Shown: positions 29,051 to 57,765 of the stretch, piece after piece | Layout of the letters: each line of letters begins with the position of its first letter | Position numbering within the stretch: the stretch's first letter is position 1 | From: Corbicula japonica | Lineage: Eukaryota; Mollusca; Bivalvia; Venerida; Cyrenidae | Direction of reading: 5' to 3' | Assembly: GCA_038501625.1 (NCBI GenBank) | Contig: JAZAYU010000013.1 | Span: forward strand, 1-64,000 | Length of the DNA stretch: 64,000 nt | Position numbers and translations under genes: made by a program | The notes under the pieces: model-generated | Told to the model about the DNA's origin: nothing | Seen by the model: only the letters and a program-made list of their open reading frames with translations | Database searches by the model: none

Positions 29051-29454
29051 CCTTTTCATATATTTCTTCATAGACTATTCAAGATGCTAATAATTACAAC
29101 TTACGAACATATTTTGTTTTTGATTGACTGAATTCTATCAGGTGACCGTATTTTATTTCTCAATGAAACGCTACTACTAATTAATATTCATAAACGGACT
29201 ACTTTCTTGATCTGGTTGCTATCTGCGTAGCCATCTTTGTTTACATCGATACGGAACTTCATCGTGGCGAAAATAAACGGAGCGAAAATAAACAACCCTT
29301 CGTTAGAAATTGTCTAAATAATGATCAAAACCAAATAAAAATATGAAGATTTTATGTGTTTTTGTTGTTCATTATGTTACAACCCGTTCCTGCAAATCTT
29401 TCCTTTTAAATTACACGGCTTTACTGCCGTATTTGTAAAAAATTGTCTGCGAAA

Positions 29455-29902
29455 ATGTCAACCTTAGAGAACGAGTCCGATGTGGACTTATTCCGACAGA
29501 TCTTCGGCAGTTTCGAGTTATTCAAGCCGACAAATTTTGATGTTGACCACGAAAATCAGAACATTGAAATTCCAGCTGATATACAGCATTTGCTAGGACT
29601 CCAGTTTGACGACCATTTTGTTGAATTCAAAAGTGAAAGTGCAACAAGTACTCTTGTTGATACTGCTATCGCGGGTGGGTCAAATGACGGTTTAGGTATA
29701 GGTGAAGCTGCAAAACCGCCTGAGGCTGTACATTCTATGCCTTCCCAACCTTTAGCTGATGCTACACACCCTTCAGATCCAACAGGTCTAACTAAGGCTA
29801 GATTTAAGACTCAAAATGAGGATGAACTTGACCAAATGAGAGAAAACAAGTACTCTGCCAAGGCTAAACAGAACACAAAATGGGGAGTCAACTTATTTTT
29901 AG
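29455..29902 (+). CDS. First exon of a DUF3504/QRICH1-ZMYM-like (Crypton-type tyrosine-recombinase-like) gene
   Basis: The ATG at 29455 opens a 149-codon exon ending at a donor TTTTTAG|GTAACC in phase 1. The first ~110 residues are acidic and low in structure (ENESDVDLFRQIFGSFELF, then a Pro/Ser-rich part). The last ~35 residues (TKARFKTQNEDELDQ...SAKAKQNTKWGVNLF) match the pattern of the SAM-like core-binding segment that begins DUF3504 proteins: RF...-E-hydrophobic-N/R-x-x-S-x-x-T-K-x-x-T-x-W. That family is derived from Crypton tyrosine recombinases. The catalytic part would lie in later exons; the only candidate downstream is the frameshifted piece at 31265-31516. A decayed copy of this exon follows at 30080-30325. 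Whether the exon is expressed is unknown. Confidence 0.6.
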
Positions 29903-30079
29903 GTAACCATAAGTTATAACACCAATTATCTTATTTGTTTTATTGTTTCAAACTGTATTTAATACATGTATGAATAAGTGTCTTAAACAAAATCAATCAA
30001 ATACCCGAATAAAACATTAACTATACTTATAAATATTCAAATTTGATTTGGTTAAAATAAGAAATATAAGACATAATGT

Positions 30080-38187: not shown

Positions 38188-40718
38188 ACTAGAAATGTGT
38201 CCATAGGACACGGATGCCCCCGCTATGCATGTTTGTCATGGTGAACATTTATACCAAGTTATTTCAAAATCCAATAAGTAATAACAAACTCAAAGCCAAG
38301 ACAAGAAAAGTCTGGTTTTAGTAATAGTGACCTTGACCTTGACCTTACAGGCATGGGAATTGTACTTAACACAACGACTTGTCATAGTGAACATTTGTGC
38401 CAAATTATTTTGAAATCACTCTGTTAATAACAAAGTTATAGCCAGTACAAGAAATTTCTATTTTTGTAACAGTGACCTTGACCTTGGACCTACAGGCATG
38501 GGTATTGTACGCGACACATCGTCTTGATATAATGAACATTTATACCAAGTAATTTTAAAATCCAATAAGACATAACAAAGTAACAGAGCAGACAAGATTT
38601 TTATAACAAAATTCTATTTTTAGTAACAGTGACCTTGACCTCTGACCTTTAGGCATGGGTGTTGTACACGACACACCGCCTTATCATGGTAAACATTTAT
38701 GCCAAGTTATTTTGAAATCCCTCCATTCATAAGGAAGTTACAGCCCGGACAAGAAAAAATCTATTTTTAGTAACAGCGACCTTGACCTTGGACCTACAGG
38801 CATGGGTATTATACGCGACACACCGTCTTGATATGGTGAATATTTATACCAAGTTATTTTAAAATCCATTTAGAAATAACAAAGTTACAGAGCGGACAAG
38901 ATTTTTCCAACAAAATTCTATTTTTAGTAACAGTGACCTTGACCTTGGACCTACAGGCATGGGTGTTGTATGCGACACACCGCCTTGTCATGGTGAACAT
39001 TTGTGCCAAGTAATGTTGAAATCCCTCCATTCATAAGGAAGTTACAGCCCAGCCAAGAAAATTCTATTTTTAGTAACAGTGACCTTGATCTTGGAGGTAC
39101 ATGCATGGGTATTATACGCGACACATCGTCTTGATATGGTGAACATTCATTCCAAGTAATTTTAAAATCAAATTCTATTAATAGTAAAAGTGACCTTGAC
39201 CTTGGACCTACAGGCATGTACGCGACACACCGCCTTGTCATGGTGAACACTTGTGCCAAGTTATTTTGAAATCCCTCCATTCATAAGGAAGCAATATAAG
39301 GAAGTTACAGCCCGGACAAGAAAAATCTATTTTTAGTAACAGTGACCTTGACCTTGGAGGTACATGCATGGGTATTATACGCGACACACCGTCTTGATAT
39401 GGTGAACATTCATACCAAGTAAATTTTAAAATCCAATAAGAAATAACAAAGTTACAGAGCGGACAAGATTTTCCCAACAAAATTCTATTAATAGTAAAAG
39501 TGACATTGACCTTGGACCTACAGGCATGGGTGTTGTACGCGACACACCGCCTTGTCATGGTGAACACTTGTGCCAAGTTATTTTGAAACCCCTCCATTCA
39601 TAAGGAAGTTACAGCCCGAACAAGAAAAATCTATTTTTAGTAACAGTGACCTTGACCTTGGAGGTACATGCATGGGTATTATACGCGACACACCGTCTTG
39701 ATATGGTGAACATTCATACCAAGTAATTTTAAAATCCAATAAGAAATAACAAAGTTACAGAGCGGACAAGATTTTCCCAACAAAATTCTATTAATAGTAA
39801 AAGTGACATTGACCTTAGACCTACAGGCATGGGTGTTGTACGCGATACACCGCATTGTCATGGTGAACACTTGTGCCAAGTTATTTTAAAATCCCTCCAT
39901 TCATAAGGAAGTTACAGCCCGGACAAGAAAATTCTATTTTTAGTAACAGTGACCTTGACCTTGGAGGTACATGCATGGGTATTATACGCGACACACCGTC
40001 TTGATATGGTGAACATTCATACCAAGTAATTTTAAAATCCAATAAGAAATAACAAAGTTATAGAGCGGACAAGATTTTCGAACATACACACTGACACACA
40101 CACTGACACACACACCCACCCACACACAGCCAGGGTGAACACTATATGCCCTTCCGCCATTACATGGCGGGGGCATAAATTTTTAGTAACAGTGACCTTG
40201 ACCTTGGAGGTACATGCATGGGTATTATACGCGACACACCGTCTTGATATGGTGAACATTCATACCAAGTAATTTTAAAATCCAATAAGAAATAACAAAG
40301 TTACAGAGCGGACAAGATTTTCCCAACAAAATTCTATTAATAGTAAACGTGACCTTGACCTTGGACCTACAGGCATGTACGCGACACACCGCCTTGTCAT
40401 GGTGAACACTTGTGCCAAGTTATTTTGAAATCCCTGCATTCATAAGGAAGTTACAGCCCGGACAAGAAAATTCTATTTTTAGTAACAGTGACCTTGACCT
40501 TGGAGGTACATGCATGGGTATTATACGCGACACACCGTCTTGATATGGTGAACATTCATACCAAGTAATTTTAAAATCCAATAAGAAATAACAAAGTTAT
40601 AGAGCGGACAAGATTTTCGAACATACACACTGATACACACACTGACACACACACCCACCAACACACAGCCAGGGTGAACACTATATGCCCTTCCGCCATT
40701 ACATGGCGGGGTCATAAA
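38188..40718. repeat. Satellite-like array of ~150-bp units with 'gtgaccttgacctt'
   Basis: About fifteen units share 'agtaacagtgaccttgacct', 'acaggcatggg', 'cgcgacacaccg', 'atggtgaacatt', 'ccaagttatttt' and 'ttacagcccggacaag'. Two alternating unit types make a dimer of about 300 bp. The array starts with 'gtgtccataggacacggatg' and ends with a CA-rich run and a small hairpin 'cgccattacatggcg'. That end cassette also occurs inside, at about 40077-40180, so a ~540-bp block is duplicated. Six or more minus-strand open frames with a repeated peptide are artefacts of the array. Confidence 0.85.
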
Positions 40719-42779: not shown

Positions 42780-44500
42780 GACTGAGATAAACATTCTGAC
42801 CAAGCTTGCAAAAGATCAGCCCATAACTAAGACCGCTAGAGTGCGAACAACCTTTTTCTTTCATTCGACTTAGTGACCTAGTTTTCAAGGTCACGTGACC
42901 CAGTTACGATCATGACCTAGATATCATTGAGATAAATTTTTTTACCAAGTTGTAAGAAGATCCCACCAAAATTAAGACTGTTAAGAGGATGGACAAGCTT
43001 TTCCTATCTTTGACCTTGTAACCTAGTTTTCAAGGACACATGACCCTGTTTCTAACCTGACCCAGATAAGATTGAGATAAACATTCTGACCAAGTTTTAA
43101 GAAGATCTGACCAAAATTAAGACCGCTAGAGTGCGGACAAGCTTTTTCTATATTTTGATCTTGTAACCTAGATTTCAAAGATACATAATCCAGTTTAGCA
43201 TTTGACCTAGATATCATTGAGATTAACATCACAAGAGTGCGAATAAGCTTTTTTTATTTGACCTAGTGACCTAGTTTTCAAGGTCACGTGACCCAGTAAA
43301 GAACATGACCTAGATATCATTGAGATAAACATTCTGACCGCGTTTGAAAAAGATTTAAAAAATTAAGGATGTTAGAGAACAGAGAAGCTTTTTCAATTAT
43401 TCGAACTTATTACCTAGTTTACAAGGTCACATGACCAACTTTCTTACTTGACCTAAATATCATTGAGATTAACCTTTTTATTAAGTTTGAAGAAGATCGC
43501 ATCAAAATTAAGACTGCTAGAGTGCGGACAAGCTTTTTCTATAATTTAACTTAGTGACCTAGATTTCAATGTCACATGACCCATTTTCAAACTTGACCTA
43601 GATATCACTGAGATAAACATTTTTACCAAGTTTAAAGAGGACTCCTCCAAAATTAGGACCGCTATAGTGCAAATAAGCGTTTTCTTTAATTTGACCCAGT
43701 GACCTAGTTTAAGGGGTCACATGATCCTGTTACAAATTTGACCTACATATCATAGGGATAGACATTCTGACCAAGTTTGAAAGAAGATCTGACCAAAATT
43801 AAGACTGCTACAGTGCGAATAAGCTTTTTCTTTAATTTGACCTTGTGACCTAGTTTTCAAGGTCACGTAACCCAGTTACAAACATGACCTAGATATCATT
43901 GAGATAAATATTTTGACCAAGTTTGAAGAAGATTAGATAAAAATTTAAACCGCTAGCGTGTGGACAACACGTTATGATTAAGGTTTTGGGTTAGGGTTAG
44001 TTAAAGACCTTATGGTTAGGGTTAGGGTTAAGTGAAAAAGCCCATAACTCGGCCAAAATAAGCAGTTTTGAAGATAAAGCATGGACAAGATTTTAATATA
44101 GAAGTAAGGGTTAGGGTAAGTTAACTACCTTAGGGTTAGGGTTAGGGTTTAGGGTAAGGGTTAGGAAATAAAGACCATAACTTGATCAAAAATAATCTGA
44201 CCAGAAATTCCTGACGACATGCACAACTAGGCTTGGTGACAAACACTCCTGTGAAGTTTCAATGAAATCTCTTAAGCGGTTTCAGAGAAGAAGCGAGGAC
44301 AAGATTTTGCTAAAAAGGCCCATAACTCATCCAATAAAATCCGAGCAGGAGGATATGCACAACTAGGCTTGGCGAAAAAAAATCGTGTGGAGTTTCAAAG
44401 AAATCCCTCAAGCGGTTTCGGAGAAGAAGCGAGGAAAAGATAATTTCGGACGGACGGACGGACGTTGAGATTACTATTATGCCTCCTTCGGGGACATAAA
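42780..44500. repeat. Second satellite-like array with 'ttcaaggtcacgtgaccc' units
   Basis: Roughly ten diverged units of about 150 bp carry 'gtgacctagttttcaaggtc', 'acctagatatcattgagat', 'aaacattctgaccaagttt' and 'accgctagagtgcggacaag'. The array runs into telomere-type repeats at 43985-44166 and closes with a 'cggacggacggacg' run and 'cctccttcggggacataa', a closing hairpin like that of the 38.2-kb array. Confidence 0.8.
43985..44166. repeat. Interstitial telomere-type TTAGGG repeats
   Basis: Two short runs of 'gggttagggttag' with variants, at about 43985-44033 and 44105-44166, interrupt the last units of the array. TTAGGG is the usual metazoan telomere repeat. Confidence 0.8.
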
Positions 44501-45546: not shown

Positions 45547-47484
45547 TTATGGAGTTAGCAAAATACATTCTTCGATGAATCCGTCAGTGGTCCACCATTT
45601 TCCCTCTTTACCTATCCATCTTCTAGCGCGAGCAGCCCTTGTTTCCATAGGATGGCAGTAGGCTGGGTTGAATTTTTTAACATAAACTGTGTCTTTACTT
45701 AAATCTATTCTAAATGTTTTGCTTTGTACTATCCATCCACTGTCATAGAATATTTGATCTAGTTCGAATAATCGACCATTTCCACCATCCAAGCTTTTTA
45801 TCGCAGAGAGTAAACCGACAGTTTTATACTGAAAGACATCGCCTATCTGAATTTCTTCCATTAAGTGTACATTTACAATTTCGTTTAGTAGTGGGTTCAT
45901 GCTTTTTGGTTCGTATCGTTTCAAATCCTCATTATCCCGGTTGTTACGCGCAAAAAGAGGTCGTTGACGAACTTTTGCCCAGAAACAGAAATGGTCTGAC
46001 CTATTCGAAAACATAGCCCACTTGGTCTCCCCTAAACGTTTTCTAGCACGACACACTACTTGTTCACTAGAATAGCATAACAAATGTCGATAGTCATACC
46101 TCGTAAGTGTTGCTTTTTCTAGGTTAACAGTAAAATTTTCCTCAATTATTTCACGGGTTCCAAATAGAGTCGGTAGACCATAATGAATACACCGTATAAT
46201 GCCAACAGTGGAAGTTAAATTTCCTTGGTGAACTTCCGTTAATATCACGTCATGAACTAGTCCATAATATCTTAGCGATATGATGTCTCCTACTTCTAAT
46301 TCTGAGAGTTTATTTACCTTCTCCTTATCAAGGTGATACGGTAACAACAATGCGCGTTGGATTTTGGTAACGTTCCACTGAAGTACAGCTGACAATAAAA
46401 GGAGCAGGATTATGAAAGGAATCCCAAATGGACCAATCAAAGGAAGTGCAAAATGTAATATGAAGAATGTTAAAACAGAAGTGACATTAAACATGCCAAA
46501 ACTTGCCCACAGATCGATACATTTTCTTTTACAACACGACCAGCACATTTGTCCTTCATAGTAGTCTTTAATATGTACAGCAGTCATCACAGTGCAGTAT
46601 ATCAGATAGATGACTGAGTCACCACCGAGAAAGAAGGCAGGAACTTGAAGCGCATTTGTCAAAGCATATGCAATTTTATCTGGTGAAATAAATAAATTTC
46701 GGAATATTCCCTTTGCTATATGACTGTTCTCTCCGAACAGCTTTCTTAAACCATGTCCGATTGTCTCTCTTATATCAACTGGCAATTGCTGTCCTCCATG
46801 TGCATACGTTGCTAAATATTCACAGTTATCTGCAAGCAGGTTGTAGTGTTTGATAAAATTCTTCTCCTTTTCATTTTCCGAAAGCATACATTCTGCTCGG
46901 AGAACTATTTCATTTTCTGTACATCTATGATGTTTGTATTCCACTGTCAAAATTTCGTCATATCTTAAATCGAATGTTTCTGTAGTTTTAGAGATTCGTA
47001 CGGAATTATTGTCATTCGTGAAATGCACCAATTCCATTACCACTCTTGTCCTTTCTGTGCGTTTTACATTTGTCACAATGGCATGATGATTGTAATGTTT
47101 CTTAACCCATCTGGAATCTTTGTTGTTGATGCCTTCTCTATAAATAGGTATGACAAGATGTTGACCTTTTCTCAAGTCAGCAACATTTTGAACACGAACT
47201 TGTTTGGAACAGTTCACACAACCTGTCTGATAATTGCCGGTCTTATTTTTTAACCGAGAGAATGCTTCTTCAAACGCTGCCATGGCGTCTTGCTCTCGTT
47301 GTGGGGGATGTTGGTCTAGCATAAATGCCTGAAGGGACTGAATATCATAGGTGTGTCTAACTTCATCAAACAGCAGTGGAATTTCGTCTGAAGTATATGT
47401 ACTTAACCATTCCTGATCTATGGTCTGCAATTCTTCGTCGTACTGGCTATGTTTTTTGTAGGTTGCGTATTTTCCCTTTATTTT
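45547..47484 (-). CDS. Terminal exon: three tandem LRAT-type domains with membrane segments
   Basis: The exon encodes 645 residues after a strong acceptor (ttatctttctcttcacag). An ATG inside that acceptor makes the frame look longer, but the first seven codons are intron. LRAT-1 keeps the family triad: His666 in YNHHAIV, His687 in LVHF, Cys754 in NCEYLATY. LRAT-2 keeps the histidines (944 in YGLVHDVI, 967 in RCIHYG) but has Ser1029 where Cys is expected (NRSDHF). LRAT-3 has Ser1093 for the first His, a hydrophobic or aromatic residue for the second, and Thr1166 at the Cys position. All three share an Arg-Ala word before the Cys region (VLRAEC, VCRARKRLG, ARARRWIG). Two hydrophobic blocks lie between LRAT-1 and LRAT-2. 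Numbering refers to the 1178-residue model. Confidence 0.85.
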   Translation of the reverse strand, partial: KIKGKYATYKKHSQYDEELQTIDQEWLSTYTSDEIPLLFDEVRHTYDIQSLQAFMLDQHPPQREQDAMAAFEEAFSRLKNKTGNYQTGCVNCSKQVRVQNVADLRKGQHLVIPIYREGINNKDSRWVKKHYNHHAIVTNVKRTERTRVVMELVHFTNDNNSVRISKTTETFDLRYDEILTVEYKHHRCTENEIVLRAECMLSENEKEKNFIKHYNLLADNCEYLATYAHGGQQLPVDIRETIGHGLRKLFGENSHIAKGIFRNLFISPDKIAYALTNALQVPAFFLGGDSVIYLIYCTVMTAVHIKDYYEGQMCWSCCKRKCIDLWASFGMFNVTSVLTFFILHFALPLIGPFGIPFIILLLLLSAVLQWNVTKIQRALLLPYHLDKEKVNKLSELEVGDIISLRYYGLVHDVILTEVHQGNLTSTVGIIRCIHYGLPTLFGTREIIEENFTVNLEKATLTRYDYRHLLCYSSEQVVCRARKRLGETKWAMFSNRSDHFCFWAKVRQRPLFARNNRDNEDLKRYEPKSMNPLLNEIVNVHLMEEIQIGDVFQYKTVGLLSAIKSLDGGNGRLFELDQIFYDSGWIVQSKTFRIDLSKDTVYVKKFNPAYCHPMETRAARARRWIGKEGKWWTTDGFIEECILLTP

Positions 47485-50400
47485 CTGTGAAGAGAAAGAT
47501 AACATGGAGTTTTAAATAATAAAAAGTATGGATGTAAATTGTTTCGACGTACCGTACAGCGACAGTGATAGCCATGCAATTCTGATTACGCTGCCCACTG
47601 AGGTAGACAAACAGCCCAATATAAGGTGGTTCTGATAATCCGATAAACGTAATGATCACTACATGACAGCGGTAGCGGATTATTCACTGATAACAGTACC
47701 TACTTCAGGTACTAGGTGTCATTTTTAAGGCCGCCACATTGCATAAACAGCGCTGCTGTGAATTTCAAATGATACAGCCTCTACTGGGGAGCGAAAACGT
47801 CACGTATGGCGACAGCGCCTAGCCATTCCATTCCTATAAATCTACCGACCAAAGTAAGAACATTCTTTACTTGAAAGTGAGGTAATAATAAAATTGGGTA
47901 CTATAAAGGGGATTTATTTTCACAAAATGCTGCTGATTTTAAGTTTTTGCGTTTTTCATTAGGATAAATTTTATTAACCAGAGATGGAAAATGGTTATTA
48001 TCTATTTTCAACAAATCATAATCAAGGTAAATTGAGGTGTTTCTAAAGGCTGTTATAATGTCATCTTCAAGTTCGGTAGAAAGAGATAGCACAAAATCTA
48101 TTTTCTTTCATAACAGTTTAAAACAGATCAGCAACAAGGAGTTCACAATTAGTACCGTTTGGAATTCATTTAACTTGTTTATAAATAGAAGTACCAAATC
48201 TTTCATAAATATTATCCAATAAAAAGATAAAATATGCATATCAGGAATCGCCACATTAAAAAAGCTGCCTCCCAACACAGTCAAGTAGAAGAGAGAGGGA
48301 GAGAGCATGGTTAATAAAACGATCGGTTCAAACAAAGACATCATAAACAATTAACAAAAATTAGGGTTACCGCCTTGGACTGTCAGTGGCAAATTAAATT
48401 GCCACTGGGGGTTTAAACCAGCTTCTACGGCGCACCAACCTCACACTTGCCCCAACTGGTTCTCATATTACAAAACAAGAACAAGTTGTCTAGGTGAAAT
48501 AACTCCAACCCACCCATTGGCTCATCAATGTTGCATGCAAAAGCACACAAACATATAAAACATAAGAAGCTAATAACATTGCAAAGTCAAAGGGAGGGTA
48601 CTCAATGACCTTACCGAGACCAGCGCTCCTGGAGTAAAATCAGCAAGAACACGATGACAGAGATAGAAGAAACGAATCGAGCTTCTAGGTTCTTTTAAGA
48701 AAAAAATTCCCCATAAACATAATGCATGTATCAGGAATTGCCACATCCAGCAGACACAGCCTCCCCGCACATCCAAACCAAAAAGTTAAGAGGAAAAGAG
48801 GGCATGGTATTACAAAAACCATTTTCAAAATGGAAGGAATTTCTACTTTAGTTCTTAATTAGTTGCACTTAGTAGATTGAATCTTGTGACCACCGGATAC
48901 CATACCATACCAAGCAAGGCTTAAACACAATCTATTGCCCTGTGCCCACTTATTGTCCAGACAAGATTTTTCTCTTTTTTAATAGAAACATTGATATTTA
49001 CCCTAGTGACCCTTTATATAATGCCAAGCAAATGAAGGTTTGCAGCATGCGAGGTTCTGCTGTCACCCTCAAACCCTCACATACTCCTATTCGTTGATGT
49101 AAGTTTAAAGCTTTATGCTTTATGCTTTGTAAAAAGCACAGTCTAACTACACACTTTTGCAGCCCTTAGGTTTTTACACTCTTCAACCTCACAGCCTCCT
49201 ATTCTTTGTTGTGATTTTTTTAACTTCAGGCTTTGTAAAAACTGTGAGTATTGCAGCATGAGAGGAAATACAGCCACCATTTTCTCTCCTCCGCCCTATC
49301 CAATATTTATCAGTTTGCAGATATCAGCTTATTTGACAACATATGGGCATAACAGCATCCGTACCTCCCTACACTCAAATGCGTATTTTGTATGGCAGCT
49401 TTCTACCGATTACAGGACTGACTTTCTCACAAGGATACTATCTAGGACCGACACGCGACAAAGTTCTATTTCCCATACCGCATCCATACGCTTTTTATTC
49501 AGGGGATATAGAATTGATTTCATTCGTCCGTTCATCCATCCGTTTTTTTTTGCACATTATCTTAAAACTTTCTTCAACAAACTTGGGATTTAGGTTTCCT
49601 TTGTAAAGCACTTGAACATGATTATATTTTGGGTCATTAGGGTCAATAGCTTACGTTTTCATTTTTATTTTAACTTCTACATGTGGCTGAGTTTTGCTCC
49701 ATAAACTAATTTTTGGCATAAATGTCCTTTAATGTTCATGGAAAAATCTTGAAAAAGAACAAAAAGCTCGATATGTTTCTTTTATTCCTAGATAATAGAA
49801 TTGTGGCATTTTACGACTTTTAAACCCTTAGTGGGAGTTTGATCATTGCGTTAGACCATGATTGATTTTGACCACTACACTACGTGTTTTTAAGATGCTT
49901 GAAGTTGATTGAAAGGGGTTTCTATGTTACATGTATGCCCCGGAAACCAGACTTTTGACGGCCAATCGGACGATAAAAGCGATTGCTATAGGTACCTGAC
50001 CCTCCGGGATCGGTGACATAAAAACAAAGCAAATAATCCAGTAACAATATGTATAGAAGATGTAAAAATAATAAAAAGTGAAATGTTTCAAAGTGAAATT
50101 TAACAAAAAGCTTCATTTCAAAAATCAGACTCCGCACACAACTGTGTGTAAAAACCAGATTTCAGGGTGCTTATATTCTTAGATTTGCCCATAAGTTGTT
50201 CACTTCAATTTAAACAAATGAAACCAACTAACGTATTTTAATAATATTAACCACGTCAGTTTATTTGCTGTTTTATACTAGTTTAAGATATTTTTAAAAT
50301 TTCTATGTAAATTAACCAATTAATCAATTAATTTAAATGGGTCAAACTGAAGTACCTGTCCTGAATGATCGTCGTAGTCTGGTCTTACTTCACCAAACAC

Positions 50401-53400
50401 CAGTGGAGAATCGGCATATCTATCAAGGCATGTCATCTGCAATTTAATAAATCATGTTTTACCGTGTTTAAGTTGCTTGAAGTGATGCAGTAAAGTAATA
50501 TAAAACAATGGCGGTAAAAAAGTTATATTTTAACAATTGTTACTTAAAAAAGGGGCGCGAATAACAATGAGAAAAAATGCATGACATAAATCATGTATTT
50601 TGGTCATAAAGTGATTTTCGGAAAAGCAATATTCGATATTTACCGGTTAATTTGACTCATTATCCACATTTTGAACGTCGTTACGGGTAATATTTTGAAA
50701 TATTTATTAATGAATTTAAGTTGTCTTTTATTTAGTTTTTAAGTGACCTCTTCACACCCACTCTGTATTCAATGCAAAACTGAATTTATTCTGAAATTAC
50801 ATGAGAAAACGTATTACAGTGTAAATGAGAAATGCAATACATTGTGAGAGCCATCCGCAGCTATGTTTTGACCTATGTTATGGTCAGTTTTTTCAGCGAG
50901 TGGTTTTTCCTCGATAAAGATAAAGTCTGTTATGGGAACTTCATCTGCTTCTCTGGACATTTCTGAAACAACACACAACTCTTAATTATAGTTTTGATAT
51001 TTATTATGTTAACATGCTAAACTGCTGTTTTTTAAACAAATAAATGTGTTAGAACATTTTGAATACTTTTTAGTAAAATATACAGCAAAGTTTACCATAT
51101 CTTTTTAAAAGTAGAAGAAAAGTACTGAAAATCATTAGAATGACAGTCCCGATTTAATGCATTTGTATTTTCATTAAATCACTCTGTTTTATGTTGTTTC
51201 CGTTGCTCTTCCATTCCAATTTAAATACCGTTCATAACTTCGCGCCTCTAGCATTTCAGTATTTAGTATTTCGTTTCGCTACTTTTCAAGTTAACGAAAC
51301 AAGGCGTTGTATACTGTATCAGCAATTGTACGGGTGGCCATGAAAGTATCTCGTGCACAATCCTAAGAAAAATTATAATGAAAGGTTGTTTAATTATAAT
51401 GCTAAGAGTTTGTAATTTGGTATTTTATAAGATTATTTGAACAACTAGATAGTAGAATGTGGTTGCTTCTAGGCCGTTGTAAAGCGAGAATAATGTTAAA
51501 TGTTTCAAAACTACCTTAAAAGCGTTTCACGTCCATCATTATAATAATATGTCTTTAATATAACCTTTCCACGACCATAACGTATTTAAACGTGATAAAA
51601 TTTTGACTTCCCAAAACCCGACCCTGTTTTACGGGAAGACGCCCGAATCGTATTTAAACGTATCAAAAAAATCGTTTTTCAAAACCCGACCCTGTTTTTT
51701 CGTCGGAAACCCGTCGATTTATTTTTCATTTTTAAAAAAGTCCTTACTTTGGTGCTACAGTACAGCTCGGGTGTTTCCAACCAAAGTCCGCGCTACGCGG
51801 CGGACTTCGCCAACTGACTGCTTTAGTCCGCGCTGCCCCGCGTTTAGCCTCAAGTCCCCGCGTTTTAACTCCGCGGACAGCCCCAGGCAGAAACTCCGAG
51901 TGCCTCGGCGTACTTTATCACGGCAACGCGGGGGCCTTGCCTGTTAGGATTACTATTATAATCATCAAATTCGCTTTAATAAATGTATAAAGTCATGTCA
52001 TAATTTACGAAATGTACATGTACATTTATTTCAAGAAAATACCTTTTATTATTTAATTTTACGTACTACGTGCTATGTAAAATATAAATCAATAATATTT
52101 ATTTCATTATTCTTTCATGTATGGACTGAAACGAAAGTTCAATGATCGGCGTCCAACAATCATTATTATGTACATGATAATTAAAATTTGTTTGAAAGAT
52201 AATTGCTTGTTTAGAATTTTTGTATTTGCAGACGGGGCTGAGCAACGGCCCGTCGGTAACAAGTCCGAGTATATTGTAAAGATTTTCATTAAGATTCGTA
52301 AACATTGACGTTACTTTTCGTGACACTGCATGCAACTTTCTTTCTATCAAACGCTTCACAAAGGCCTACTGTACAAAGTAAATGTTTATTATTGTAAAAT
52401 TCTCAATGAAATGGAGCTTGGCGGGTAATTTGCTGGTATTTACAATACAGCTTGAGTATAAAAGTTCATAGCTTTAGCATATTCTTATTCGTATTTTTAG
52501 TCTTTTCCGTTTTTATCTTTTAACTGTTTTCTTAAAATTCAAATGGAAGAATAAAATAATATTAGGTTTTAAAATTAAATTAATACTGAGCGGCATGTTA
52601 CTGTACAAGCAAACAAATAATTCTGCAGCAATTTAATAATAACATAAAGTTAAAAATGTTAATATAAGGTTTAAAACTCAACAATTTGAAAAAAAATGTT
52701 AATATGGTTTAAAACTCAACAATTTGAAAACGTAAACAAAGTAATGTAACGAAGGAAGTTATAAATACTGTACCTGAAAAACAACAAAGTTAACGTAAAT
52801 AAACGTAACGAACAAACATAATTTAACACATCGTGAAAAATTATACCAGCCTAATACTGTAGCTGAAAAAAAAAGAAAATCAAATATAATGACAATTGTA
52901 CGAAAGAGTAGCGATATAAATAACGCCGCATTCCACCGGCATACTAAGCAGAGTTCCTCCGCGTCATGTTTCGTAAAGATAAGCTGTCCCGCTTGTCCGC
53001 GCTAGTCCGCGCTGAATAACAAGGTCCGCGCGGGCAATCCCCGCGTTTTTCCTCGGAGAAAATACGCGTTTAACGAGTTGGGTCCGCGGAGGGCGCGAGG
53101 AAAATGTAAAAAACTCCCGAGCTGTACTGTATTTAAAAGAACGCGGAATCATCGATCGATTATAAAACTATTAGTCTCTTGAATGCATCGCATATTTTCT
53201 CTCAAATATAATTTAGTCAGAAATTGAATACATTTGACCTAGATAATCTGATAAGAAAATTAGTAATTTTAAATAGTTCAATTTTAAGAAAAAAAATCGA
53301 ATTACATGTGTTGCTGTTTCTTCATCTTTCATTGTTAAAATAAAAAAGTGGCTCCAAAACAGTTATTCATTATTTTAAAAAAATCCTTTATATACCTAGT

Positions 53401-56400
53401 AATTACTTAAAAATGACATTTTTTGCAATAGCATAAAAATTAATTACTGTTAATTAGATTAATTAATTTACGAAATTTTACGTTACAGTCCTCCTGCGAT
53501 AAACCGAATTTTTCACCAATTACGTAAAAGAGCGTTGAAATTCGGGATTTTAACGCACTATTCTCGATATGCATTTTTCCACCATTTTTACAGAAGAAAG
53601 TTCGTAACGTTAGATAACGTGTTTTACACGGGTTTCTTACCATTTTGACAATTCCGAATTTACTCCGGTTTTACCGGTAACGGACAAAACACTTTTTAAC
53701 GGGCATTAAAATAAAATTTACGCAGATTTACGTTATGGTTTTTAAAATCGTGAAAAAAGCACACGTTTAAATACGTTTCGGGCGACCTCTAGTAAAACAG
53801 GGTCGGGTTTTGGGAAGTCAAACTTTTGTCACGTTTAAACACGTTACGGACGTCCGTCCAGAAAACAGGACCGGGCGCGGAAAGGATATGCACAATTATG
53901 CATTACATTTACAATTGTTTACATGTACATTTACCATTTGTCACTATGTCAGCTTTCATCGGTAAGTTATACATTTTAGAAAGTAGCTGTGCTGCAGACT
54001 GAAAAACATGTTCCATGTCGCTTTGCTCAAAGTTTGTTGGTGGCTTCACAGTAAGTAAAACAGAAGGAGCCCTGCCCTCACTTTGAGAGAGGCATGTATC
54101 CTGAGATGCATTGGGTTTATCATCATTTTGACATCTTAAAGAAGAGTCTAATTCAGAGGTGTTCATCTTTTTACCTATTTTCCAGAAAAAAAGAAAATGA
54201 AACATGGTATATTTTTAGTTACTGATACCTTTTCAATTTAAAACAAAAAAAATACCAGAAAGCTTTTCTTGAACTTAAATCAAATGATCAACAATTTATA
54301 TAAGTATCACCAATTTTTTTTAAATATTACAAGGCGGCCTGATTTGTAATACAGTAATACACTGACCAAAATAATCAAGGAATTCCATCACTATCGCCAT
54401 GATGATTGCAATCTAAATAATCTATGTACATTGATTGTTTTGTTGTTTAATATTTTATTATTATTGTCTCATCAATTTACATTACATAAAACATTACATA
54501 AAACATTACACCATAAAACATGACATAAAACATTACATAAAAATGACTTGTAAATGGCCGTTCTATTATAGAACTACAACAGACATATAAATTTCACTAG
54601 GATATTTACATTTATACATTTAAAAGTAGTGACATCTTTGATAATCGCAATCTAAAATTTTGTTAAGACTTTGGGATATAAGGATACTGGATATCGTTTA
54701 TGAGCTTTGTAAGCTTCAATTCATTTAATATGTTAAACAGAGTATCGTTTGTAGCAAACGAAATGACACCCGCTAGTCAGAAGGTTTTAAAAGATATTTT
54801 GTTTATTGCAGCATTCTGTAAAATATTGTGGATTTAACATTTTAAAAGCATAATTACGCTTCGTTATATGATTAACAATGAAAGTAAGTTGAATAATTTA
54901 TCTCAAACACTAAGTCGGTTAATGTTTATTAATTATTAGTTTTTACTCTTATCTTCTAATACTAATGCAAAAACACTAACTTAAATAGCGGGCAGGGCTT
55001 GAAAAAAAAAACTTACCGATATCATGCAGTACTTGAGAGAGGTCTTCTAAGTAAATACTCATTTCAAACTGTGAATCTAGAAAACTCTCGTTAGTTTGAA
55101 ATGCTAATTTTAGTTCATCTAGATATTTATCTAGATCGCCATGAATGTAATCGACGTAAAATGAAAGAACAGCTGAAGTGGATAAAAATCGAAAATGTAG
55201 CAGGATACAGCCCTTTTCAGCTTTCACAATATGGTAACCTTTCGCTTCCATGTTTTTGTAAACACTTAACACTTTTCTTCGCCTTTCCTGTTTACTATCA
55301 TCCACCTCTGACATACCGAAACCCTTGGCGATTGCTTCATTGAAATGCTCTACGAGTTCTTCGGAAATAGTTTCCTCCGTCTCTCTGTCGCAGTTCTTAG
55401 GTCTAATCTTAACTGAAATTGAAAACAATAGTACGCAAACGAGTTTAATTCCATATGAGCAGGTTAACCGTCACATCCGGCGGAACATTTTTAGGGAGAA
55501 CTATCAAATTGAGAGTTTCACAGTTACACAAGTACAATTAACCAGAATTACTAATAAATTAAAACAAAAAATTGCCCACTACTTAAAAGGGTTTCTTTGA
55601 GATCAAATACATTTTATACATTTTCTGATTTTAATGTGTAGGAATGCACGATTTTTCGCATTTTGAATTTTATAAATAACCTTGAATAGTATTTGAAGGG
55701 CCATTATCCAGATTGGGTTTTCTGCGCAATTCTTCCATCATCTTTGCTATATCATCTTTCAGTTCACTGATATCTACAAAATTACACGAAAAAAAAAATA
55801 CACAAACAAAGAAATATATTGTTTGAGAAAAATTCCTTTTTCTAACCGTGCTAAACTGAAATAAACACTAAAGTTTAGGTCAGTATTAAACCGACTTTGT
55901 CAGAGTTTAAATGATAATTAAAATCAACATACACTCAACAAAAGTTCTAATTGGTCACTTTTTGTCCGTAATTTTTTATTTGAAAGACATTGAATTCACT
56001 CTTTATTTATTTATTTATGATCATATGCCAGCAACAGTCTCCAACTTAAGCTTAAATCTTGTAATAATTGACCTTGGAACAGTTCGGCGAGAGTTATCCT
56101 TAATTTTGTTAAAACTGCATTTCTTGCATAAAAAGGTCAAGCAAACAGAAATTTGCTCTAAATTTCTTGTTTTATTTAAATAGGACCCCTCTTTAGTAGG
56201 CAAAATAAAAAACATGATTAATCGACAGCACATTTGTTTAAATAATCCCCTTTCAAAGTATCCAATTTTACCTCCCTTTCAATTAAAGACTGTTCTTATT
56301 TTGACCCTACGGTGTAAGTAAATGGTATTGGATTCATTTAAGAAAATAATCAATAAAGATTAAAAAGACATTAAATAATTGATTTCAAGACAAAACAGTT

Positions 56401-57765
56401 CCACAACCGCTCTTGACGTAGGGAAAAAAAACAACGAAACTAGCATACATTGTAAACATATACAATTAATGACCAATTAGAACTTTGGTTGAGTGTATGT
56501 TACTCTTCCAAGTAAACATGTTAAAAGTGTTAGTGCATTTAAAAATATAGCATATAATAAACAGTAGAATATAGAAAACTATCAAACAAACCAACGTCAT
56601 ATAAAAAACAACAATTAGACCTATTAAGGAGGTTAAAAGTCCACAGTTTGAACGTGACGACATTATGTTTAACAAAGGCAATATATATTAAACTTAAGCA
56701 AGATCTTGTAGTCCATTTTTGTTATGAAGTTTAATAGTGATCAGAAACAAAACATTCAAATTACAATTAAAAAAGTTACACTTTTAACCCAATTTAATAA
56801 TAATTCAAGAGTTTGTCAAAATTAAAATAATATGAGATCTTTTAATGTTTGCTACAGGTAAAGGGCAGAAATTAAACAATTCACAGAATCAAGGGGCACT
56901 ATTCAGAAATGAATGAAAATGAAACTCGTCTGAGATGGCAAGAAATATACTAGCGGAAACAGTGATAGACGGAATCACGGACGTGATTGGGGGGGGGGGG
57001 GGGGGCATAACAGTAAGTAAATAATCAAGAACTATATGCATAGTCCAAGTTTGCAGCAAACAAGGCAAACAAAATTGAAAGTAACTGAACATGTTTACCA
57101 TTTTTCAAAATTTCCCTTGTCTTGTTATGTTCCTTTTCACTTTGTTCTCTTGAATCCTTATGTTCCTTTTTAATAGAATCTCTTGCTTCCTCTACAGAAT
57201 TCTTCGTTTCTTCACAAGAAATCTGAAGAGCCGTCAAAGCTTCCGCTAATGCCTCATTGGGTATCTTTCCCTCTTCCAATTGTTGTAGCATTTTATTTAT
57301 GGAAAGTTCAAGTTTTGTACAATTTACTTCTTCAAGAATTGTTTTGAAAATTACTTTGATTTTTTCAAAGTAATGTTCATAGCTGGCGTCACTGATAACT
57401 AATGTACCAAGATGTGCGAGTTTATTGCGTAATTTTTTTAACTGAGACAACCTTGTGTCTATATTCCTACTAAGTCCGCATGTTGATTGTATAACATTGA
57501 GTAAAAGGGATAAGTCCCAGAGATCCAGGTTAGTTGCGTTGCCTCCAACCGGATATACTTTCTGCTTTGATATTGGATACAGTTTTGATTCTAGTTTATT
57601 TTTGTTTATTTGTAAAAATGTATCCATCGTCCATGTTTGGCTATCCTCATTATGGGGCCTTAGCTCGGTTACTTTCTTCTGAAGTAATGCTCTTAATAAC
57701 ATTGTGCCCCCATGCTCAGTCACATAACAGAGATTAGATATTTTTGCCTTATTTGACGCCGCCAT
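45547..57765 (-). CDS. HEPN - TRADD-N-like - triple LRAT-domain protein (7 exons, predicted 1178 residues)
   Basis: Exons on the minus strand: 57765-57099, 55773-55681, 55412-55017, 54174-53935, 50962-50841, 50436-50356 and 47484-45547. Intron phases are 1, 1, 1, 1, 0, 0; all borders are GT-AG and every junction keeps the frame. Domain order: DZIP3-type HEPN (about 1-165, RNKLAH at 113-118), Lys/Glu coiled coil (186-255), TRADD-N-like alpha/beta segment (about 311-384), linker, LRAT-1 (636-766), membrane segments (815-837, 869-902), LRAT-2 (930-1037), LRAT-3 (1078-1173). HEPN domains with Rx4-6H are often RNases; LRAT domains are NlpC/P60-fold acyltransferases or thiol hydrolases. The combination is unfamiliar to me and suggests a membrane-linked immune or stress effector (inference). 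The weakest junction is exon 4 to 5, across 2.97 kb of transposon-filled intron; a two-gene reading, with a start at 50960, is the main alternative. Confidence 0.62.
47901..48166 (-). mobile_element. Broken reverse transcriptase fragment of a retroelement
   Basis: The minus strand reads IPNGTNCELLVADLF then a stop, and after a frameshift DYDLLKIDNNHFPSLVNKIYP. These match two successive conserved stretches of the same reverse transcriptase class as the 25.1-kb fragment. Stops and shifts make it non-functional. Confidence 0.6.
48225..48840 (-). repeat. Interspersed repeat R1, reversed near-full copy
   Basis: In reverse complement it follows the order of the 35.4-35.9-kb copy: 'cgtgttcttgctgatttta', 'gcatgcaacattg', 'gtgtgaggttggtgcgcc', 'ttgccactgac' and 'ccatgctctc'. 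Confidence 0.65.
50356..50962 (-). CDS. Exons 5 and 6 of the HEPN-LRAT gene (linker)
   Basis: Exon 5 (50962-50841) follows acceptor 'gttgtttcag' and ends at donor AAT|GTATTG. Exon 6 (50436-50356) follows 'attaaattgcag' and ends at CAG|GTACTT. Exon 6 is 27 codons in phase 0 at both ends. It encodes SPLVFGEVRPDYDDHSGQ, echoed at the start of exon 7 as IPLLFDEVRHTYDIQSLQ, so the linker contains a duplicated motif. Exon 5 contains an ATG at 50960 that could start a shorter, LRAT-only protein. Confidence 0.65.
51567..53888. mobile_element. DNA transposon in intron 4 (outer element of a nest)
   Basis: The ends are long inverted repeats. 'gacttcccaaaacccgaccc' at about 51605 faces its exact complement near 53800-53820. 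Similarity extends both outward ('cctttcc ... cgtgataaaa') and inward ('cgtatttaaacgt'), over roughly 90 bases. The 'aaaacccgaccctgttttt' word is repeated once more near 51678. The interior is split by the element at 51756-53131. A minus-strand frame at 53440-53643 inside the right part has no recognisable domain. The element starts 47 bases from the donor of exon 4. Confidence 0.7.
51756..53131. mobile_element. Inner DNA transposon with CpG-rich subterminal repeats
   Basis: Terminal inverted repeats are 'tacagtacagctcggg' at 51756 and 'cccgagctgtactgta' ending at 53131. Each end has a CG-rich zone repeating 'agtccgcgct' and 'ccccgcgttt', in an otherwise AT-rich intron. Subterminal repeats of this kind are usual for hAT-like elements, but the target duplication was not resolved. 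There is no transposase frame. Confidence 0.7.
53935..55412 (-). CDS. Exons 3 and 4 of the HEPN-LRAT gene (TRADD-N-like segment and linker)
   Basis: Exon 3 (55412-55017) follows 'ttgaaaacaatttcag'-type intron sequence on the transcript and ends at the consensus donor ATCG|GTAAGT. Exon 4 (54174-53935) ends at AATG|GTAAAT. Residues 311-384 in exon 3 (GYHIVKAEKGCILLHFRF, then SFYVDYIHGDLDKYL, then SQFEMSIYLEDLSQVL) follow the strand-helix-strand pattern of the N-terminal domain of the death-receptor adaptor TRADD, including the hydrophobic strand, the 'L..Y..G.L...L' helix and the final amphipathic strand. Exon 4 is a Ser/Asp-rich linker with one compact stretch (SVLLTVKPPTNFEQSDMEHV). The TRADD-N assignment is from pattern, not from a search. 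Confidence 0.6.
54481..54545. repeat. Imperfect 'acattacataaa' microsatellite
   Basis: Five imperfect repeats of about 12 bases in intron 3 of the HEPN-LRAT gene. Confidence 0.8.
55932..56495. mobile_element. Tc1/mariner-like element (564 bp) in intron 1
   Basis: It starts 'cactcaacaaaagttctaat' and ends with the inverted 'attagaactttggttgagtg', flanked by TA on both sides, the target of Tc1/mariner elements. Arms match over about 30 bases with two differences. On the minus strand a short frame reads NSRRTVPRSIITRFK, which may be a remnant of a transposase helix-turn-helix; the rest of a transposase is missing. Confidence 0.7.
56989..57005. repeat. Run of 17 G
   Basis: An uninterrupted mononucleotide run of 17 G, reading as poly-C on the HEPN-LRAT transcript, about 90 bases inside intron 1. 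Confidence 0.9.
57099..57765 (-). CDS. First exon of the HEPN-LRAT gene: DZIP3-type HEPN domain
   Basis: The ATG at 57765 has an in-frame TAA two codons upstream and A at -3, so it is a credible start. The exon encodes 222 residues and ends in phase 1 at AATG|GTAAAC. The fold signature is helical with RLSQLKKLRNKLAHLG at its centre; Arg113 and His118 form the Rx4H motif of HEPN domains. Upstream the words LCYVTEHGGTMLLRALL and NLDLWDLSLLLNVI match the DZIP3-type HEPN family, which is expanded in molluscs. The C-terminal third is charged (EETKNSVEEARDSIKKEHKD) and likely coiled coil. HEPN domains with this motif can cleave RNA; activity here is inferred. Confidence 0.8.

Follow-up and report, generated by a model that had tools for sequence, protein, structure and literature searches.

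A candidate HEPN, TRADD-N-like and LRAT fusion gene in the bivalve Corbicula japonica

Introduction

Does one gene of Corbicula japonica join an N-terminal HEPN domain, a TRADD-N-like domain and LRAT-type domains in a single protein, or do two neighbouring genes lie one behind the other? The question is raised by seven minus-strand exons in the window, by which we mean the whole stretch of DNA analysed, the first 64,000 nucleotides of contig JAZAYU010000013.1 (assembly GCA_038501625.1). The first-pass annotation had joined these exons into one protein and knew of no described protein with the same domain order.

Part of this order is already on record. HEPN and TRADD-N accompanied by variable effectors are a published architecture of bivalves and cnidarians (Kaur et al. 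2021, eLife, PMC8195603). Further domains described in that paper are STAND NTPases, AIG GTPases, WD40, cGAS-like and PARP, with lineage-specific expansion in bivalves, and the TRADD-N proteins of sessile marine invertebrates are described there as swapping effector domains quickly. In the pearl oyster, DZIP3/hRUL138-like HEPN domains have expanded, often together with NACHT (PMC9646362). Within the open-access literature we found no paper mentioning both LRAT and TRADD-N, and nothing nearer appeared among the papers listed by wider searches; LRAT and HEPN occur together in one open-access paper, on a CRISPR ribonuclease (PMC12825302).

Results

Seven exons can be joined in frame

In-silico splicing of the seven exons (Table 1) reproduced the annotated coordinates, found AG/GT at every inner border, gave phases 1,1,1,1,0,0 and yielded a product of 1178 amino acids followed by a stop. 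Where DNA is AT-rich, as here, an open frame across joined exons says little by itself. For exon 2, the coding scan gave a short scoring segment (55777-55730), and a phase 1-1 exon was recognized by eye in the same position at C123, a second locus described below.

Table 1. Position and character of the features of the candidate gene within the window
Feature	Position	Strand	Description
Exon 1	57099..57765	-	DZIP3-type HEPN with RNKLAH (Rx4H), then charged helical tail; phase-1 donor
Exon 2	55681..55773	-	Short helical linker, phase 1-1; weak donor GTTATT; based on AG/GT borders and frame
Exon 3	55017..55412	-	TRADD-N-like domain, phase 1-1
Exon 4	53935..54174	-	Linker conserved across the family, phase 1-1
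Exon 5	50841..50962	-	Probable coding exon starting AG|AA-ATG; based on coding score
Exon 6	50356..50436	-	Short, resembles the N-terminal motif of exon 7; begins AG|ATG
Exon 7	45547..47484	-	LRAT repeat 1, hydrophobic membrane region, LRAT repeat 2, eroded third repeat, stop
In-frame ATG in exon-7 acceptor tract	47485..47505	-	Based on sequence and N-terminal alignment of relatives

Elsewhere in the window, a plus-strand ORF of 169 amino acids at 29410-29919, which carries MSTLENESDVDLFRQIFGSF close to its beginning, has the look of a coding exon. Minus-strand ORFs at 38951-39597 repeat MEGFQNNLAQVFTMTRRCVAY and apparently form a local repeat, and an interstitial TTAGGG tract of about 6 units lies at 44130-44165.

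Exons 1-4 form a repeated module

The N-terminal DZIP3-type HEPN domain is borne out by the window copy itself: exon 1 scored 29.7 bits against Pfam HEPN_DZIP3 (PF18738, cut-off 27), and the Rx4-6H motif is present as RNKLAH. A scan of the genome (1.07 Gb in 1630 contigs) with PF18738 gave 118 places at E<=0.001, the window not being among them. With tblastn, relatives of exon 1 were found in three of the four stretches upstream of exon-3 family members, with 46% (C904), 42% (C123) and 34% (C88) identity and with the Rx4H motifs RNELAH, RNKLAH and RNKFCH, respectively; at C333 none was found within 6 kb upstream of the exon-3 copy. Since the HEPN_DZIP3 scores of these relatives are low (25.8 bits at C904, 17.4 at C123 and no match at C88, against a cut-off of 27), their tie to HEPN rests on similarity to exon 1 of the window.

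Exon 3 belongs to a family found at 28 places in the genome, the window copy included. Nine of the 19 aligned members matched TRADD-like_N (PF20694) at E<=1, with a best E of 1e-4; the bit scores shown for two members were 13.2 and 17.2, against a cut-off of 23.7. The window copy itself matched no Pfam family, at E<=10 in one scan and E<=1 in another, and the annotated TRADD-N domain is thus recovered weakly and via relatives only. A PDB profile search with exon 3 gave nothing at E<0.1 (best E 0.13), and its single-sequence structure model (pLDDT 45) was too poor for use. A death-fold match, expected for the Death-like domain that usually partners TRADD-N in metazoan expansions, was not found by Pfam in exons 1, 3, 4 and 7.

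Relatives of exon 4 were detected by tblastn downstream of exon 3 at C767, C333, C88 and C123. At all six loci read (C904, C767, C27, C333, C123 and C88) a GT donor in phase 1 closes the exon-4 relative, though at C88 it is a weak one, so that the gene appears to continue beyond exon 4 as a rule. Exons 1-4 are a module repeated in this genome. Searching proteins with them gave no hit in the 8000 candidates scored, but matches to the coiled coil probably took up that list, so that absence is not proven by it.

The sequences following the module differ from locus to locus: a P-loop GTPase-like exon at C88, LRAT in the window (C13) and at C123, and LRAT-type exons at C27, all of them candidate C-termini. 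At one C88 locus the P-loop exon (L062:1508-1756) comes after exon 4 in what is, by eye, a matching phase 1; its Pfam hits (RsgA, MMR_HSR1 and AIG1) all fall below cut-off. This order resembles the arrangement of a module plus variable effector described in PMC8195603. A later ORF on the same strand at C88 (L062:5460-5951) has no Pfam match and ends in a hydrophobic segment. At C333 the exon 3/exon 4 module is followed downstream by an exon (L057:3063-3932) in which a GDSG trypsin-like motif was seen by eye; Pfam gave no match there, and the trypsin-like reading was set aside.

The LRAT part and its family

Alone, exon 7 scored 19.9 bits against LRAT (PF04970), below the cut-off of 24.3, and its identity as LRAT is supported via relatives. 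L010 and L011, with 64% and 62% identity to exon 7, reached 50.1 and 49 bits; scores ranged from 27.1 to 50.1 in L010-L013 and were 45.2 for a Ruditapes protein and 106.1 and 93.6 for two Mytilus proteins. A repeat profile built without the window gave 127 bits for repeat 1, 79.6 bits for repeat 2 and a non-significant 1.6 bits for the third. Of the three LRAT-type domains annotated, two are therefore clear repeats and the third is eroded or doubtful.

Repeat 1 keeps H134, H154 and C221 and is the only one with the His-His-Cys set; its motif reads NCEYL in the window against NCEHF in all five aligned relatives. In repeat 2, Ser at 496 replaces the catalytic Cys, as it does in five relatives from the genome. 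Between the two repeats, hydropathy indicates a hydrophobic membrane region. The N-terminus of the exon-7 part carries DEIPLL, found as DIPLL in L014 and absent in L012, which we take to resemble an acidic dileucine sorting signal.

The family of exon 7 has 54 matches in the genome, itself included, which merge into 33 loci; it is otherwise seen stand-alone. Its protein relatives are Ruditapes P0001 (LOC132759422, 34%) and Mytilus P0003 and P0004 (LOC127711155 and LOC143074079). All four proteins in the alignment have the first LRAT repeat (truncated in the gene model of Ruditapes), then a hydrophobic region in which CWSC is invariant, and a second repeat with Ser for Cys, and the order, including the eroded unit, is that of exon 7. 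The Mytilus and Ruditapes proteins gave no match to HEPN or TRADD-N, and both Mytilus proteins repeat the LRAT2 unit several times. By Pfam, the Mytilus proteins contain 6 (P0003) and 5 (P0004) LRAT stretches, the repeated units being without Cys and, in most cases, reading SNRS where the NCE motif would stand. Within the Corbicula genome, G000:C316:13221-34885 holds a one-strand array of LRAT-repeat genes, two of which match over their full length, while a third is split into two pieces and contains an internal stop.

Comparison of exon 7 with L010 gave a dN/dS of 0.33 and no stop in 645 codons, showing that exon 7 is under constraint. The window branch (about 0.41, against 0.21 for L010, from three-point arithmetic on the dN/dS table with L012 as third point) has evolved faster but remains constrained. 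The structure model of the LRAT part, built from 4 sequences, was too poor for use (pLDDT 51), and Foldseek with it returned nothing at E<=0.001. A PDB profile search with the LRAT part gave no significant match; HRAS-like suppressor 2 stood in the second row, at E 0.64.

Association of the module with LRAT at other loci

An LRAT locus follows on the same strand, no more than 12 kb downstream, at two of the 28 exon-3 places, the window and C123. Uniform placement, which ignores clustering of immune-type genes, predicts 0.005; without the window, one is observed against 0.005. The C123 locus (L053/L054, G000:C123:223501-237500) carries HEPN, exon 2, exon 3, exon 4 and LRAT in the same order on one strand. 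This copy is damaged: the HEPN exon has a frame break, Ser replaces the catalytic Cys of LRAT1, and the membrane region of the LRAT part was not found there. Each part of the candidate gene is present and open in the window and belongs to a multi-copy family, and C123 is a second place where module and LRAT part follow one another in this order on a single strand.

A further case came from C27, where exon 4 is followed, 6.0 kb further along its own strand, by two LRAT-type exons of another subfamily (NCETW motif; L058:6726-7221, plus strand). They scored 20.9 bits for one and 22.7 for the two joined, against a cut-off of 24.3. This pair, recognized by eye in the wake of a coding scan, stands outside the count of two in 28; at this locus the sequence read covers the TRADD-N-like exon, exon 4 and the LRAT-type exons. 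Exon 3 of C27 falls in the exon-3 clade of the window (support 98/97).

The window and C123 are not sisters in either the exon-3 tree or the LRAT tree, although several of the forks concerned fall short of the starred support level and C123 fills just 42% of its row in the LRAT alignment. Their separation at both ends fits repeated assembly. Exon 3 of the window sits on a long branch, and the LRAT branch of the window is longer than those of L010-L012. Exons 1-4 were not found in any of four stretches 8-10 kb upstream of the LRAT relatives L029-L032 (best E 0.31), and protein searches, with 8000 candidates scored each, revealed no fused HEPN/TRADD-N/LRAT protein.

The candidate join of exon 4 to exon 7

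Nothing else between exons 4 and 7 scores as strongly for coding as exons 5 and 6; on both strands from 44 to 60 kb they rank 4th and 5th, behind exons 7, 1 and 3. The coding score of exon 5 exceeds those of all 692 open intronic intervals of 120 nt, and that of exon 6 those of all 1459 of 81 nt, the intervals overlapping in both sets. The donor of exon 5, GTATTG, agrees with the consensus at three of six positions, and exon 5 itself fails the donor filter. Between exons 4 and 7 the splice filters let through twelve further phase 1-to-0 candidates, the best with a score of 1.81 against 13.1 for exon 5. Read through to the TAA ending at 50814, exon 5 also ranks first among 73 candidates for a last exon after exon 4. 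An AATAAA lies 24 nt beyond this stop; with 51 AATAAA/ATTAAA in 13.4 kb such signals are common locally, and we discarded it as evidence of a gene end because it does not discriminate. Exon 5 may be the link to exon 7, the first exon of an LRAT gene or the last exon of a HEPN gene.

No convincing relative of exon 5 was found in seven downstream stretches, including that of C904, which has the shortest tree path to the window among exon-3 relatives. At C333 an exon resembling exon 5 was dropped, being the second-best segment there (36) after another ORF (38), reached by one in 60 shuffles with seven stretches tried.

The DNA alignment of exon 6 with the start of exon 7 reached a score of 39, whereas none of 200 shuffles exceeded 27. 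Exon 6 scored 32 with L013 (shuffle maximum 36), 26 with L010 (25) and 24 with L011 (29); the match to exon 7 itself alone stands out. By eye, the acceptor of exon 6 and the bases beyond its donor also resemble LRAT coding sequence. Judging from these likenesses, exon 6 may be what remains of an LRAT gene, or of an LRAT N-terminus, that was duplicated.

The start was read in 11 of the 19 other loci retrieved as relatives of exon 7, and every one of the 11 has its own ATG; the two Mytilus gene models (P0003 and P0004) likewise start at the equivalent of exon 7. A splice acceptor shortly before the ATG is, by eye, clear in ten of these 11 relatives and doubtful in L013. In the window, the exon-7 acceptor comes after the equivalent ATG, which lies within about one codon of the start codon of the relatives in a start context that looks weak by eye; splicing would remove it, and the AG-then-ATG start of the relatives is absent. 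At C123, too, an AG directly follows the ATG of the LRAT part. In both exon 5 and exon 6 an ATG coincides with the acceptor or comes directly behind it, which is also how LRAT genes of the exon-7 family begin.

Discussion

With the published HEPN/TRADD-N proteins (PMC8195603), the candidate gene shares HEPN and, more weakly, TRADD-N, found there in one protein, an expanded module and variable further domains. It differs in that LRAT does not occur in the main text of that paper, and DED or Ig found no match in exons 1, 3, 4 and 7. The pearl oyster HEPN expansion (PMC9646362) likewise offers an N-terminal DZIP3-type HEPN with Rx4H in many copies, whereas NACHT was unmatched in the same four exons and neither LRAT nor TRADD occurs in the text of that report. 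What links exon 7 to the LRAT/PLAAT (H-REV107) enzymes (PMC10102619) is the LRAT profile of its relatives, His-His-Cys and a membrane segment; here, in contrast to the enzymes described in that paper, LRAT is repeated, Cys is kept in the first repeat only and the membrane region lies between repeats 1 and 2.

Taken together, the leading candidate for the product of the locus is a single defence-type protein bound to the membrane, with exons 1-4 spliced to exon 7, a reading to which we assign a probability of roughly 0.45. Frame and phase fit, the coding-like exons 5 and 6 and the linkage at C123 speak for this part of the first-pass annotation, while the independent ATG of all 11 LRAT relatives read and the weak donor of exon 5 count against it; we infer the splice join of exons 4 to 7 into one transcript. 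Nearly as likely, and somewhat short of even odds, is that two neighbouring genes lie on the same strand, one with the HEPN/TRADD-N-like exons 1-4 and ending in exon 5 (stop near 50814) or in a further exon, the other encoding the LRAT membrane protein, with its start codon in exon 5 (ATG at 50960) or in exon 6 (ATG at 50436). Starts of LRAT relatives shortly after a splice acceptor, Mytilus proteins beginning at the exon-7 equivalent, the AG|AA-ATG and AG|ATG borders of exons 5 and 6, the read-through of exon 5 as best last exon, and the absence of exons 1-4 upstream of four LRAT relatives out of four all agree with two such genes, which may still work together. They leave less well explained why linkage of the families at C123 and the LRAT-type exons at C27 (the latter outside the count) exceed the uniform-placement prediction and why a donor follows exon 4 in six of six relatives read; moreover, effectors on the same polypeptide are the pattern published in PMC8195603.

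It is improbable that we are looking at decay, that is, a once-linked pair in which the HEPN/TRADD-N part or the join is dying or rewired, exon 6 is a relic and the LRAT gene is live. The damage at C123 (a HEPN exon with a broken frame, Ser where LRAT has its catalytic Cys, no membrane region found), the likeness of exon 6 to a duplicated fragment and the long window branches of exon 3 and of LRAT would suit such a history, but all seven exons of the window are open and splice in frame, and the HEPN motif and the catalytic residues of LRAT1 are kept. Joining in frame by chance only is very improbable. Each join has a chance of 1/3, and AT-rich DNA is rich in AG and GT; exons 1, 3, 4 and 7, however, have family relatives in the same frame, and no alternative phase 1-to-0 candidate rises above 1.81, whereas exon 5, which itself fails the donor filter, reaches 13.1. 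For exons 1-4 a chance joining is already unlikely.

If the single-protein reading is right, the HEPN-coiled coil-TRADD-N-like module of exons 1-4 would be spliced via exon 5, with or without exon 6, to the LRAT membrane part. The HEPN part might then meet foreign or excess RNA, by sensing or cutting, upon which the TRADD-N-like domain and the coiled coil would oligomerize. LRAT repeat 1, with its His-His-Cys set, could subsequently act as a phospholipase or acyltransferase on the membrane holding it, and repeats 2 and 3, being without Cys, may serve as a lipid-binding or regulatory scaffold. We tentatively suggest, granting that the odds lean slightly against so specific a view, a single HEPN-TRADD-N-LRAT immune adaptor with a membrane-anchored LRAT effector, assembled more than once (in the window, at C123 and possibly at C27) from separate branches of both families.

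Were the fusion real, LRAT would be a new effector choice in the known HEPN/TRADD-N architecture. Membrane attack or remodelling would be added to nucleases, GTPases and PARPs, and an RNA-type domain would be linked to lipid chemistry. Human PLAAT4, an LRAT relative, is interferon-stimulated and restricts some pathogens (PMC10102619). Even as two genes, the recurring neighbourhood suggests that both families cooperate.
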